Assembly: GCA_012520725.1 (NCBI GenBank)
Contig: JAAYNQ010000175.1
Location: forward strand, 1 to 46,563
Source: Syntrophomonadaceae bacterium
GTDB taxonomy: Bacteria; Bacillota; Syntrophomonadia; Syntrophomonadales; Syntrophomonadaceae
Direction: 5' to 3'
Length of the DNA: 46,563 bases
Positions 39,016-44,991 of this stretch are shown here, in pieces. Below the pieces are notes generated by a model that searched no databases, was not told where the DNA came from, and was given only the letters and a program-made list of their open reading frames with translations. Both the position numbers and the translations under genes were made by a program. The number at the start of each line of letters is the position of its first letter. Position 1 is the stretch's first letter.

Positions 39016-40215
39016 TTATATCCCTAAACTGCTCAGCATTTTAGCAGTCATGGTGGCAGCTTCGGCTCGGGTGGCGTTCTCACTTGGAGCAAAGCTGCGG
39101 TTCGGTTTACCGGTTATTATCCCAGCGTCGGCCGCTACTTTTATGTATGGTGCTGCCCAGGCTGGGATTGTAGCTGCATCGGTAAAGTTTAGCTGCGCAC
39201 CGGCTGGTGCTTGCTCCTGCATGGCCCTAACGATCATTACTGCTATCTCGGCGCGGGTAATGTTGGCACTGGCTCGGAAGGTCTTATCTTCGTAACCGTT
39301 AATGATTCCAGCCTGTACTGCAGCGGCAATATAAGGGCGGGACCATGCGGGAATCTCTTTTTGGTCCGCAAAGTTCAGTTCTGGTTCATCGGTCAAAGGC
39401 AGGCTTAAAGCCAAGGCAATGACTTTGGCAAATTCCGCCCGGCTTATATTTTTTTCCGGCTTAAAGGTACCATCGGCATAGCCATTTATGACCTTCATTC
39501 CTACCAGGCGGTTGATATAGGAGCTTGCCCAGTGGGCCTGGATATCTTTTAATGAAGGCAAGTCTGACTCCATGACCCCAGAGGCGGTGGTATGGGGAAT
39601 ATTGACGGTGATGTTTCCGGCTGAAGGTCCGGCTGTTCCTGAACTATTGCTGCTATTGCCCGTTCCAGAGCCGCTTTCCGAATTTCCTGATGAACCAGTA
39701 TTGTCTTGTTCACCTGGTGGAGGAGCGGCAGTGTTAATGATACTGCCGTGCGTTACACTGGCAGCAATCTGTTGCAATGATGCATTGGTAATAGTGAGGT
39801 CGCTTATGGTAAGGGCGGAACTACCTGGCCCTATTATTTTAAAGCTAACGGAAAAGAGCTCTCCCCCGGTGCTTGTTCCGGTAGAGGAGGCCCACACTAC
39901 CCGCACTGCATTTTTTCCTGCCTTTTGGTAGCCCAGGTTGGAAACAAATTGCCCTTTGGCCGCTGTCCCCCTGGTAGCCTGCACAGGGCTGACTACTTGC
40001 GGGTCATAGAAGAGGTTAAGTGAGCCACCTGCCATTCCAGACGGGTTCTCAATGGATACCGTTATGTTGACTTCCTCCCCAGTTTCTCCCTGGGCGCTGC
40101 TGACAGTAACCCGGCAATTGTCGGCTGCCAGGGCCGGGACTGCTGTCAGTAACAGGCCCAGGCAGAGCAAGCAGCTAAGGAATATCTTTAATGGTCTCTT
40201 TCCATGAATCTTCAA
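39016..40215 (-). CDS. cell-wall-anchored protein: cohesin domain + three SLH domains
   Basis: This 399-aa protein is exported by a signal peptide (KIFLSCLLCLGLLLTAVPALA). The mature N-terminus is a type I cohesin-like domain (about 32-160: RVTVSSAQGETGEEVNITVS, MAGGSLNLFYDPQVV, GGELFSVSFKI). A Gly/Ser/Asn-rich linker (about 165-205) follows, then three S-layer homology domains (about 220-400: INGYADGTFKPEKNISRAEF, INGYEDKTFRASANITRAEI, ITGKPNRSFAPSENATRAEA). SLH domains bind pyruvylated wall polymer and cohesins bind dockerins, so this is a surface anchoring scaffold. A TTG start at 40215, seven bases after GGGGGAG, is preferred over an ATG at 40239 that lacks a ribosome-binding site. Confidence 0.9.
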   Translation of the reverse strand: MKIHGKRPLKIFLSCLLCLGLLLTAVPALAADNCRVTVSSAQGETGEEVNITVSIENPSGMAGGSLNLFYDPQVVSPVQATRGTAAKGQFVSNLGYQKAGKNAVRVVWASSTGTSTGGELFSVSFKIIGPGSSALTISDLTITNASLQQIAASVTHGSIINTAAPPPGEQDNTGSSGNSESGSGTGNSSNSSGTAGPSAGNITVNIPHTTASGVMESDLPSLKDIQAHWASSYINRLVGMKVINGYADGTFKPEKNISRAEFAKVIALALSLPLTDEPELNFADQKEIPAWSRPYIAAAVQAGIINGYEDKTFRASANITRAEIAVMIVRAMQEQAPAGAQLNFTDAATIPAWAAPYIKVAADAGIITGKPNRSFAPSENATRAEAATMTAKMLSSLGI

Positions 40216-40276
40216 TTTGACACTCCCCCTTTTCTTCATATCGGTTTTTGCAGCTACAACTTGAGTTATTTTTCAT
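40175..40276 (-). CDS. 33-codon leader ORF overlapping the SLH gene start
   Basis: An ATG at 40276 lies seven bases after an excellent AAGGAGGT (40290-40283) and opens a 33-codon frame (begins MKNNSSCSCKNRYEEKGEC, two Cys pairs close together) that overlaps the first codons of the SLH gene in another frame. It may be a regulatory leader peptide that couples or gates translation of the SLH protein, or a small protein. The Shine-Dalgarno is the only direct evidence of expression. Confidence 0.4.
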   Translation of the reverse strand: MKNNSSCSCKNRYEEKGECQIEDSWKETIKDIP

Positions 40277-40290
40277 TGGCCCACCTCCTT

Positions 40291-40410
40291 GACCTACCTG
40301 CCTACAGGCATAGTCCGGATCTTGCGGCAACCGGGGCGATTATAGCCCGCACCAGCAGTTTAGCAGTCTTAGCTTCCGCGATACAGGCTGTGTTGGGAGT
40401 TGAGTTTTTT
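40291..40410 (-). promoter_or_regulatory. structured GC-rich leader of the SLH gene, unassigned
   Basis: The minus-strand leader contains several short stems (GCGGGC/GCCC, CCGG/CCGG, GCCUGUAGGC) and a TATAAT on a GC-rich background. The run ...UAUAAUCGCCCCGGUUGCCGC... partly resembles the 3' half of c-di-GMP-I riboswitches, but the conserved 5' GGCAAACC hairpin is missing. I therefore leave it unassigned. Confidence 0.3.
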
Positions 40411-40465
40411 TGAAGTCTACAAATTCCTTCCCGGCACAAATATTATCTATTATCAATTATAATTA

Positions 40466-43400
40466 TTAATTCTCCGGAATCATCGGGGTTCCCCCGCCCC
40501 CACCTGGAAGCGGGGTTATGGGGAAGAAGTCTATCAGGTGTACCACTTTGCGCAGAATCAGGATGGCATCCTGGTAGTTGACAATCTGCTCGCCCTCTGG
40601 GGTGAGATCACCGTTAACATTGGCGGCCAGTTCCTGGGATGGGGCAAGCTCAATGAGCCCGGCATCATAGCGCAGAGCCAGTATAGCATCACCCACGTCG
40701 ACCACTCCGTTGTTATTAATGTCCCCATGCAGCACCCCTATGGTAATCACTCCCTCTTCAGTCAGACAGGGAATACCCTCCGGGCTACCATCAGAAAGCA
40801 CGATCCCGTTGCTATCTTCGGTGGGGGTGATCCAAATGTGGCTGAAATCACCGTAAGCCCCAATCAGGCGGAATTTAATAGTGCAGAAGGTAGATGAAAG
40901 TTGATCCTGAGAGGCAATGGCAATATAGGCAAAACCCGTTTGAGCCTGGGTTACGTCACGGATGACATTGGTCTCCAAGTTCAGCTGCCCACCCCCGGAA
41001 GTAATTTCCCAAAGTGGGTTCCCCTCGTTATCAAATAACGGACTGCCGGTAGCACCGGTCTGTTGCACGATTTCTACCACTGCCGGGTTATAGTGTAATT
41101 TAAATTGCGCGCCCTTGGCCCCGGCAACGTAGTCCGAGCCTATGGAAATCTCTACAATTGAGCCAACCGCCCCATTAGCACTGCTGACTTTTACCACAGG
41201 AGTATTCATAGGCTCCAAAGTAAAGTCTATGTCATCAGTGACAGTATTTAGGCTGACTTCCACCGGCTGGGCTTGCTCCGGTATTCCACTTCCGCCGGCG
41301 CTGTTATACCATTCATCCATATACGGCCAGCCATTGGCGCTGGGCACGGCTTTTACGCGATAAGATCCTGCCGGGACAATTAGACTGAAAAAACCGTTTT
41401 CGTCAGTTTCAGTCCCATCCCCCCAAATACCAGTGGAATAGTCTTGGGCGTAAACATGAACTCCGGCCATAGGGGTTTCTCCATCCCCAAGCAGCACCTG
41501 CCCGCTGATTCCTCCCCCGGATTGCAGGGTAAAGTCGATGTTATCATAAGAATATACAGCCGGCCCCAGTTCTATTATATCGGCATCTTCCCGGGCGCTG
41601 TGACCGTCATAATAGCTGCGCAGCCAAAAGCTGTCGGCAGGTGACCAGCGTCCCCCGCTGGGGCACATTACTAAATAATAACCATAGGGCAGACCACTTA
41701 TAGTATAGCTGCCATCTAATTCGCTCCTGCTCCCATTGCACCACTCATCCAGGCAGGCATCCAGACTAATATCGGCCAGCCCATTTCCGTTCATATCTAC
41801 GACCCGGCCGGAAATCCACCCTCCCGGAGGCAAAATGAAATCTATACCGGATACATTGGCAGAAACATCTACTATTTCCATGGCATTATCGAAAATACTT
41901 CCCCCGGCATGGTTATACCAGACAGCAGCATAGGGCTGCCCTGCAAATGGCAGTGCGTGTATCCGGTATTCTCCGGCGGGTACCACCAGGCTATAATAGC
42001 CCTCATCATCGGTTTCGGTTCCGCTGGTCCACTGGTCAGTCAGTTCATTTTCTGTATAAACATGAAGGTTTTCAATACCCTTCCCCTGCTGGTCAGTAAC
42101 CTGTCCGCTTATGAAAAAACCTCCCTGCAAGCGAAAATTGATATTCTCGGTGCCAGCCCCGGTATTGACTGTAACCGGTTCAGCCAGTTCATAATCCGTG
42201 GTACCCCCGGCCGCATTATACCAGGCATCTATAAAGGGTTGGTGGTTTTGGGAAGACTGAGCTCTGACCCGGTATTTCCCCACCGGTAATATCAATCTAT
42301 ACAGCCCATTATCATCAGTATCGGTGCCGGCTATCCAATAACCAGTTTCATAATCAACCGCAAACACATGTAAACTGGCAATAGGATTGTCACCATCGGC
42401 AGTCATTACATAGCCGGAGATTACCCCGGCCGGGCTCAGGACCAAATCTATTCCATTTATACTGGCCCCGTTGACCGTAATAATATCAGCTTCATCCCAG
42501 CTTGATTTGCCGTCATAAAAGGTTTGCGCCCAGTAATTATCGTTGGGCATCCACCGTCCGGGGGCCCACACCTTGTATTGGCCATAGCGGAGTCCGGTAA
42601 GGATGTAACTGCCATCAGGTCCGGTCTCAGCCCCGGTTCCAACCCCGCCATTCTGCTGAAGCCATTCCCCAACTACACCTATTCCCGCCAAACCATTGCC
42701 GGCTGCATCTGTTACCAAGCCGGAAATACAAGCACCCGGTTCCAGGAAAAAGGGTTCCAGGGTAACGCTTTGACCCTCACTTAGCGTAACCGGGATTAGT
42801 TCCTGGCGGACAAAGGTTCCCCCCTGGCCATCATACCAGGACCGAGCATATGGGAAATCCGTCCCCGGTTCAACCACTACCTGGTAGGTCCCCGGAGAAA
42901 CCTCCAGTCTAAACTCCCCGTCGGAATCTGTAAATGTTTGGCTTACAAAATCAGTGGTTTCAAAGTCTTGAACCACAACTTGTATATTTGCTACCGGTTC
43001 GTCAATGTAGTTTACTTTACCGTTAATAAAACTTCCGCCCTCCATCACTTGCAGGGAAAAGGATTCACTGCTGGGTAAATAAGCTAAAGCATCTCCATCA
43101 GCATCGACACTGACGGTAATAGAGTAATTACCCGCCGCAGGCATGGTCTGGGCGGCCTGGCCAATCTGAATAGCTTCACCGGCAGAAAGGTATATATCCT
43201 TTATAGTCACCCGGTCACCATCATCACTGATCTCGTCGGCGGTTAGATCGCGCCAATTGCTTTCCCCCAGTTTAACCGCATTGTAAACAGAAAAGCTGGT
43301 AAATTCCGAAGTAATAGTAAATGTACCATTGCTCAGGTTTTGTCCGCAGGTGTAGGTATATACAACATCCTGATCGCTCTGGCCGGCGGTGGGCGGGTCC

Positions 43401-43850
43401 GGGTATATTGCCAGGGTACCCGGAGTTGTCGGGGTAACAATTGGGTCCGTAAGGAAGACTGTTTTTTGCTCCTCACCGGTACCCGGCGAAGCCGCCCATT
43501 TCTGCCCTTCCCCGTCGGCATCGCTTTGGGCCCACACTGTATATTGGCCTGCGGAGGGCAGAGTCCTTCCAGGCTGAATGACAGCAATAGTATCCCCGGC
43601 ATTCAGAGTAAGACCATTAATGGTAATGGTTTGGCCGTCCCCGCTGATTTCCTGGTTGAGTGAAGCTTCGGGGGGATGGTTGTTGATAAGAAGTTCATCA
43701 AATTGGTTGAAGGTGGTAAGCTCCGAATGTATTTCCACACTACCGTTGTCCAAAGCCTGGCCGGTAGTATAGGTATAACTAACATCGTAATCGCTCTGAC
43801 CGGCAGTAGCCTGGATAGGGTCAACACCTAGGGTACCCGGTATGGGCTGG
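40466..43850 (-). CDS. large surface protein, 3' part: six CarboxypepD_reg-like repeats, cohesin, dockerin
   Basis: Reading continues from the upstream frame (43828-44991) after an apparent one-base frameshift near 43849. Numbering from a TTG at 43753 (unlikely a start; no ribosome-binding site): two Ig-like units (TAGQSDxDVxYTYTxGQ; the first begins at ~43815, before that TTG), then six carboxypeptidase-regulatory-like repeats (INGKV, ISGLV, ISGYV, ISGQV, ISGRV, ISGQV with GTYxV/GEYRI strands), then a cohesin-like domain near 850-990 (VKVSSANGAVGSIVEISIG, KGAQFKLHYNPAVVEIV), and a dockerin at ~1005-1075 with two calcium-loop helices (DINNNGVVDVGDAILALR; ...NYQDAILILRKV). A Gly/Pro tail ends it. 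The dockerin can pair with a cohesin such as that of the downstream SLH protein. Confidence 0.85.
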
Positions 43851-44991
43851 GAGGATTGGCGGTAAGCAAGACTGTAAAACTAAAATTATATTTGTTGTTC
43901 TCCATATAATCTTGAGCCGGTTCTCCTACTATTTCAAGATTACTATACCCATCGATGGGCAAATACTCCATACGGAAGCCACCCCCGACCCCTCCGGTAA
44001 ACTCATCATAGAAGGTTGGGTTGGCATTAGGCTCTAAATCTCCCTCAGCATAGGAAGTTATGAACCAGCTTTCAATCCACCCGGGCGTAGGATTGAGTTC
44101 ACTATCCGCCACATTTACCAGGTGGTTGCTGGACAGCAGGACATTCTCGTTCACCTTTAAGGTTAATTCGGGATCTTGGGTGCCAACCCACTCTTCATGC
44201 CAGAACCAGTCAGAAAAGTCTCCATTATAATAATAGTAAGTATTATCATAGTCTAAAAACCGGTTGGACATAGTCAAGTGAATATTCTCCAGAGGAACAT
44301 TTTCCAAACTGGGCAACCCACTTACCTCGGTAGCGGTGCACACTATATCGTTCAAGGTCAAAAAGCCAAAAAAGTAGTGCTGATAATACTGCGGGTCGAA
44401 GCGTTGTACTGGATATTGCCCCAGTTGTTCGCCGAAAAAGCTGCCGGTGAAAGTTCCGGTGAATACAATATAGGGTTGCCCGTTAAGGGCGGGGCGTTCA
44501 AGATTTACCTGGGGAGTGCGGGTAATCAGTAAGGCATATTCTTGTTCATCACTATCGCTACCCAGAGCATTTGTGGCATAGGTGTCAATTTCGTATTGAG
44601 TGGTACCTATACTCAGGTCAACACTTACAGGTGGAGTTTGGGAACTCAAATCGTGGTTATCATAAATTGCTGGTCGTTCTATCCTGGCATTCCCGTCCTT
44701 CGCAGTGCTTTCCAATCGAAATACCGTACAATCGATATATTCCTGGACCGGAACCAATTTAATTGTTACCTGGGCAGCATTATTGGGAACCATACAGTGC
44801 ATAATTTGTGAACCAGGAGTAAAAGACTGTTCCCCCGTACCCCAGTTAACAACAATCTCAGAAAGACTCGCATCAGCATAATCGAAGCCATAAACCGGTG
44901 CAGGCGGGGCTAGTCCTAAAAGGAAAAACCATACGCCCAGAAACAAATAATACCACCAATAGCGGAAAACCAAAGAACCTATTTTTTTCAT
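43828..44991 (-). CDS. large surface protein, 5' part: signal peptide and cadherin-like domain
   Basis: This 387-codon frame starts behind AAGGGGGAG with a hydrophobic signal (YWWYYLFLGVWFFLLGLAPPAPVYG). Residues ~40-160 resemble a cadherin-like beta-sandwich (SLSEIVVNWGTGEQSFTPGSQ ... YEIDTYATNALGSDSDEQEYALLITRT). The rest (160-375) is a beta-rich region with no recognised domain. It ends at a TAG only because of an apparent frameshift. The other frame carries on from the same place with GTLGVDPIQATAGQSDYDVSYTY, which repeats in the downstream part. So this is the 5' part of one ~1500-aa gene spanning 40466-44991. Confidence 0.82.
   Translation of the reverse strand: MKKIGSLVFRYWWYYLFLGVWFFLLGLAPPAPVYGFDYADASLSEIVVNWGTGEQSFTPGSQIMHCMVPNNAAQVTIKLVPVQEYIDCTVFRLESTAKDGNARIERPAIYDNHDLSSQTPPVSVDLSIGTTQYEIDTYATNALGSDSDEQEYALLITRTPQVNLERPALNGQPYIVFTGTFTGSFFGEQLGQYPVQRFDPQYYQHYFFGFLTLNDIVCTATEVSGLPSLENVPLENIHLTMSNRFLDYDNTYYYYNGDFSDWFWHEEWVGTQDPELTLKVNENVLLSSNHLVNVADSELNPTPGWIESWFITSYAEGDLEPNANPTFYDEFTGGVGGGFRMEYLPIDGYSNLEIVGEPAQDYMENNKYNFSFTVLLTANPPSPYRVP

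Follow-up and report, generated by a model that had tools for sequence, protein, structure and literature searches.

Lists of cohesin-dockerin modules found outside cellulosomes go back years, with the partners left unclear, and the occurrence of such modules is documented (Peer 2009, as cited in PMC9012536). The pair from the non-cellulolytic Archaeoglobus fulgidus is cited as binding specifically and with high affinity (PMC9012536, PMC9705933), and it has been employed as a binding pair of high affinity (PMC9705933). Cohesins and dockerins of ANME archaea and of the sulfate reducers that accompany them have been tied to S-layer domains as well as to syntrophic contact, with expression data available (PMC9012536, PMC10553843).

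The locus described here lies in the window, that is, the whole stretch of 46,563 nucleotides analysed from a Syntrophomonadaceae bacterium. Judged by its sequence, it is a variant of the known non-cellulosomal cohesin-dockerin systems, and neither a cellulosome nor a BslA hydrophobin. Like the ANME and sulfate-reducer proteins (PMC9012536, PMC10553843), it is non-cellulosomal and S-layer-linked, with a role in cell-cell contact proposed; those genomes, however, carry several dockerins, as well as some scaffoldins with multiple cohesins, and ABC binding proteins, whereas the window genome has a single detectable dockerin, whose gene adjoins that of an SLH anchor, and belongs to an apparently Gram-positive spore-former (spore germination genes, seen on inspection of the translations, and SLH domains point to an anaerobic member of the Bacillota). 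With the clostridial anchoring scaffoldins it shares a secreted anchor with a cohesin and three SLH domains, but a primary scaffoldin, dockerin enzymes and a carbohydrate-binding module, as in clostridial cellulosomes, are lacking. To our knowledge, the Archaeoglobus pair has no SLH anchor and carries other partner domains. We found no description, in the open-licence literature, of a recurrent, adjacent anchor-plus-partner pair with a single genomic dockerin. The reading that we favour, with a probability of roughly 0.6, is a two-component, non-cellulosomal surface display by a private pair of anchor and partner.

The wall anchor and the intergenic gap

All features of the locus are on the minus strand (Table 1). 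The first-pass annotation had taken one of the two genes to be a wall anchor with a cohesin and three SLH domains, and this is borne out. Its cohesin, c1, lies well above the PF00963 cut-off of 24.1 bits and matches the solved cohesins 3l8q and 2xdh in a phmmer search against the PDB; the SLH triplet scores 160.6 bits, and the N-terminus is signal-peptide-like. Among the best matches of c1 is 2xdh, which we take to be the Archaeoglobus cohesin. Anchoring through the SLH domains is plausible, since the host genome encodes a CsaB-type pyruvyl transferase and has SLH domains in about 20 ORFs.

The gap between the two genes counts against surface display by the pair as regards co-transcription. 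Within it, at 40240-40290, the ribosome-binding-like site is followed by the possible leader ORF, of about 17 codons, which overlaps the anchor start out of frame; translational coupling is possible. A riboswitch was rejected, as the gap has no Rfam match.

Table 1. Features of the locus in the window, followed by the related pairs in other genomes
Feature	Position or locus	Strand	Evidence and remarks
Wall anchor, 407 aa	39016..40239	(-)	signal-peptide-like start, cohesin c1, linker, three SLH domains
Three SLH domains of anchor	39055-39189, 39241-39372, 39427-39552 (span 39055..39552)	(-)	PF00395
Cohesin c1 of anchor	39739..40119	(-)	PF00963, 43.9-46.6 bits; PDB cohesins by phmmer; custom profile
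Intergenic gap, 226 nt	40240..40465	(-)	strong ribosome-binding-like site (AAGGAGGTGG), short possible leader ORF
Large partner, main frame, 1137 aa open	40466..43879	(-)	no signal peptide in frame
C-terminal dockerin, 6-residue insertion in second calcium loop	40529..40735	(-)	Pfam sub-threshold; PDB matches; AlphaFold; custom profile
Cohesin c2	40739..41200	(-)	partial PF00963 match; Foldseek; custom profile; abuts dockerin
Six carboxypeptidase-regulatory-like (transthyretin-like) repeats, limits approximate	41210..43039	(-)	PF13620, 166.3 bits, 6 stretches
BslA-family Ig-like domain 2	43079..43378	(-)	PF17735, 57.4 bits
BslA-family Ig-like domain 1	43469..43825	(-)	PF17735, 52.7 bits
Frame break	43828..43879	(-)	stop of N-terminal ORF (~43,830) overlaps main-frame start; apparent net one-base slip near 43,850
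N-terminal ORF, 387 aa	43828..44991	(-)	signal-peptide-like start, weak cadherin-like sandwich, then region without recognised relative
G065 pair	L021	same strand	117 nt apart
G013 pair	L022	same strand	13 nt apart
G066 pair	L023	same strand	27 nt apart
G066 second pair	L044	same strand	
G032 pair	L024	same strand	21 nt apart; single half-dockerin
G009 pair	L028	same strand	20 nt apart

The large partner and its frame break

From the N- to the C-terminus, the main frame of the large partner encodes two BslA-family domains, six CarboxypepD_reg repeats, a second cohesin (c2) and a dockerin. The BslA-family domains had been overlooked in the first-pass annotation. Jointly they reach 100.7 bits (cut-off 38.7), and a phmmer search returned no match to them among the PDB sequences. 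They have in common with BslA/YweA of Bacillus (PF17735; 4bhu, 5mkd) the domain family and the expected Ig-like fold; unlike BslA/YweA, they stand in tandem within a long surface protein, and they do not keep the Bacillus BslA caps, L77-S78-L79 and L153-S154-I155. The alignment shows LDN or LSN in place of LSL at Cap 1, and DGE or DGD in place of LSI at Cap 3. Because the hydrophobic caps are largely lost, these domains more probably serve as structural units of Ig-like type than form a water-repellent film, and we rejected a BslA hydrophobin function. A BslA-type hydrophobin coat, shown on the surface via cohesin-dockerin coupling, would account for two PF17735 domains so far above the cut-off, but the substituted caps make it very improbable. 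The BslA-family domains of the window (43079-43825) and of L013 (1453-1836) have a DADG motif in common at the position of the third BslA cap, possibly a metal site that replaces the hydrophobic cap.

The N-terminal ORF and the main frame lie in different frames. Since the homology between the two BslA-like repeats runs right up to the junction, and since the codon-position GC pattern shifts there, the two look like one gene split by a net one-base slip, and the N-terminal ORF is probably the N-terminus of the large partner. By inspection, the junction lacks a slippery heptamer, and a programmed frameshift was rejected. With the gene broken in the assembly, its 1137-residue product would, as sequenced, have no signal peptide, which counts against surface display by the pair. 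The earlier description of a very large secreted protein is therefore upheld in its repeats, cohesin and dockerin, but not as a single frame, for the signal peptide sits in the N-terminal ORF. An AlphaFold model of this ORF alone, made without relatives, was unusable (pLDDT 36). For its tyrosine-rich region of about 230 residues (43831-44600), neither Pfam nor a set of 60 related genomes offers a recognised relative, and a whole-protein search of public genomes found no match.

The break could also be real, in which case the locus would be decaying, the large protein would no longer be secreted, and the anchor alone would be functional. We regard this as rather unlikely. Besides the break itself, decay would fit the lack of the system in other members of the genus and the unusual second loop of the dockerin (see below), but the coding sequence is otherwise open over about 4.6 kb, with no second break, and the repeats read cleanly on both sides of it. 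The host assembly, moreover, is a draft of 212 contigs, and single-base errors occur in such assemblies. In G065, the counterpart of the large gene is likewise broken, which is compatible both with errors in draft assemblies and with decay.

The C-terminal cohesin and dockerin

The two C-terminal modules of the large partner score weakly with Pfam. Cohesin c2 has a partial match (22.9-27.4 bits across 57 of 139 positions), and the dockerin, at 17.5-20.1 bits, remains below its cut-off of 22.9 bits. In a phmmer search against the PDB, the dockerin aligns across both repeats with several solved dockerins. An AlphaFold model of the tail, built from 24 sequences, shows three dockerin-like helices, with a pLDDT mostly of 88-97 in the dockerin; type I and type II cohesins and a double dockerin are the top Foldseek matches of this model. 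Because its cohesin half has low confidence, the fold match of c2 is only supportive. The tail of the L021 protein, from another genus, is 33-40% identical and exceeds the cut-offs for both cohesin and dockerin. Taken together, these comparisons suggest that the weak calls hold up. Set against a type I dockerin, with its two F-hand calcium loops, the first loop of the dockerin is canonical; the insertion in the second is not seen in the other aligned dockerins, and counts against surface display by the pair. Across their first 51 residues, c1 and c2 are 39% identical. Only one to two residues separate c2 from the dockerin, both at the window locus and in L021.

Cohesins and dockerins in the host genome

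A cellulosome has a multi-cohesin scaffoldin and many dockerin enzymes; the host genome, which is 99.99% complete, has three cohesins in three proteins, and one detectable dockerin. No second dockerin came up with the Pfam model across the whole genome, nor with a custom profile, derived from these families, in the 214 kb that cover the SLH-bearing loci. The proposal that the big protein could carry further dockerin proteins is not supported by these searches. Dockerin partners elsewhere in the genome had been suggested as a test; none being detected, the scaffold part of the idea fails by that test, while the simpler part, an anchor plus its partner, survives. A genome-wide search for GH9 cellulases, a glycoside hydrolase family, was negative, and no enzyme domain or carbohydrate-binding domain occurs on the large partner or on any other partner protein examined. 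The genome thus has both modules and no detectable dockerin-bearing plant-wall enzyme, in agreement with the suggestion of a non-cellulosomal assembly without a carbohydrate-active domain. Cellulosomes do contain SLH-cohesin anchors and dockerins, but given a single dockerin and partners of this kind, a remnant or reduced cellulosome is hardly credible.

The third cohesin of the host (L086, G000:C114, 2164-3357; L002 45-767) is part of a secreted cohesin and DUF5018 protein without a dockerin. Its gene adjoins that of a CFI-box-CTERM membrane-anchored protein, and the same contig has a 2408-residue frame with SLH domains.

Related pairs in other genomes

In a comparison set of 63 genomes of the class, cohesins above the cut-off were found in 6 and dockerins in 7. 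Eight cohesin loci in this set are above the cut-off, and seven of them (G000:C96, which is the window locus, G013:C75, G066:C132, G066:C356, G065:C199, G009:C159 and G032:C13) have a dockerin in the adjoining gene on the same strand, the only exception being G000:C114. Two of these seven dockerins are sub-threshold in Pfam, namely the window's own and the single half-repeat of G032. With the modules confined to so few genomes, repeated adjacency by chance is very unlikely, and the comparison speaks strongly for the idea of pairing. An eighth pair in the class, in G036 (L049), is sub-threshold, with a weak cohesin, and a Syntrophobacterales MAG (L052) has the same pairing with a Calx-beta-like repeat protein (repeat type by inspection).

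Pairs are found in other genera of the family too, with varying gene order. The anchors are of the SLH or CFI-box-CTERM type, and the domains of the partners differ at each locus (Ig-like, DUF5018/Big_4, carboxypeptidase-like or unknown). The feature that recurs is an anchor cohesin with a neighbouring dockerin. The closest architecture is that of L021 in G065, where the SLH region of the anchor is 58% identical and one dockerin is again accompanied by two cohesins.

The system is patchy, since the four other members of the host genus have no detectable cohesin or dockerin, and this too counts against surface display by the pair. The dockerins of the group are also not all paired: L055 and L064, two Syntrophomonadaceae dockerins from a search of public genomes, have no neighbouring cohesin. 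In G031, three dockerin genes occur without any recognised cohesin. Its three secreted proteins (L045, L046, L047) bear near-identical dockerins (SSDHQRLFEHLNGTNPL), which suggests a common receptor that is undetected or missing, and two of the three genes adjoin SLH proteins without a recognisable cohesin. An 87-residue frame in G035:C12 (L048, 4839-5015) has a clear dockerin (45.6 bits) amid prophage-tail-like genes. Outside the class, L025 (5692-7752) and L027 (6091-8130) are CARDB-like secreted proteins with lone C-terminal cohesins; they lie beside TonB-like genes, with no dockerin nearby. A cohesin followed by a dockerin within one protein occurs in L063, L067, L069 and L074, from Clostridiales, Hydrogenedentota, Spirochaetales and Nitrososphaerota MAGs.

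The partner of c1 and the role of c2

Because only one dockerin is detectable in the genome, c1 would be served by the neighbour's dockerin alone, barring a missed divergent dockerin or a partner from another cell. With one dockerin for three cohesins, the spare c2 may bind another copy of its own protein, buttress the dockerin, or engage something supplied by another cell. A simple one-to-one pairing does not account for the role of c2, and this counts against surface display as we propose it. The close abutment of c2 and dockerin makes it less likely that the protein folds back onto itself, and favours a chain or a buttress.

In the first case, one type of dockerin would bind both the c1 of the anchor and the c2 of further copies, giving a self-assembling, head-to-tail brush or fibre on a single SLH anchor. 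The locus has two cohesins for its one detectable dockerin, leaving c2 without another partner in the genome; the layout in G065 matches, c1 and c2 resemble each other, and the order of cohesin then dockerin recurs in the four MAG proteins above. We nevertheless consider such a chain improbable, as c2 is the more divergent cohesin, with its partial Pfam match, and may bind no dockerin, and as the pairs in G013 and G009, each of one cohesin and one dockerin, have no need of a chain.

In the second case, c2 would be a structural support for the dockerin and not a receptor, for which the X module in type II cellulosomal complexes is a precedent. This is possible but doubtful: the spacing conserved in L021 and the partial Pfam match of c2 speak for it, but c2 is still recognisable as a cohesin, and its L021 counterpart is well over the cohesin cut-off.

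Proposed surface display and its implications

In the surface display that we favour, the anchor would be secreted, and its SLH domains would fix it in the wall by way of a pyruvylated wall polymer. The large partner would be secreted separately, and its C-terminal dockerin would plug into c1 in a calcium-dependent manner, leaving Ig-like and transthyretin-like domains to project from the cell as an arm; if the frame break stems from an assembly error, the N-terminal domain would be on this arm too. The most likely role would be adhesion, aggregation or decoration of the S-layer, rather than polysaccharide breakdown. Attachment of the big protein to the wall via the neighbour's cohesin, as first suggested, is supported indirectly by the recurring adjacent pairs and by the SLH ORFs and pyruvyl transferase of the host; the extension into a scaffold is not.

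One detectable dockerin, an adjoining anchor cohesin and similar pairs in related genera make this a tractable system, in which elimination leaves little choice of partner. For the spare cohesin, the question is well defined: it may serve to polymerise, to buttress or to make contact across cells. If the chain were true, the locus would encode a minimal, two-gene brush made of a very large adhesin, and a surface appendage could be assembled with neither sortase nor pilus machinery. Expression of related modules is known from methane-oxidising syntrophic consortia (PMC10553843), and an answer would therefore be relevant to the way in which syntrophic cells stay together.
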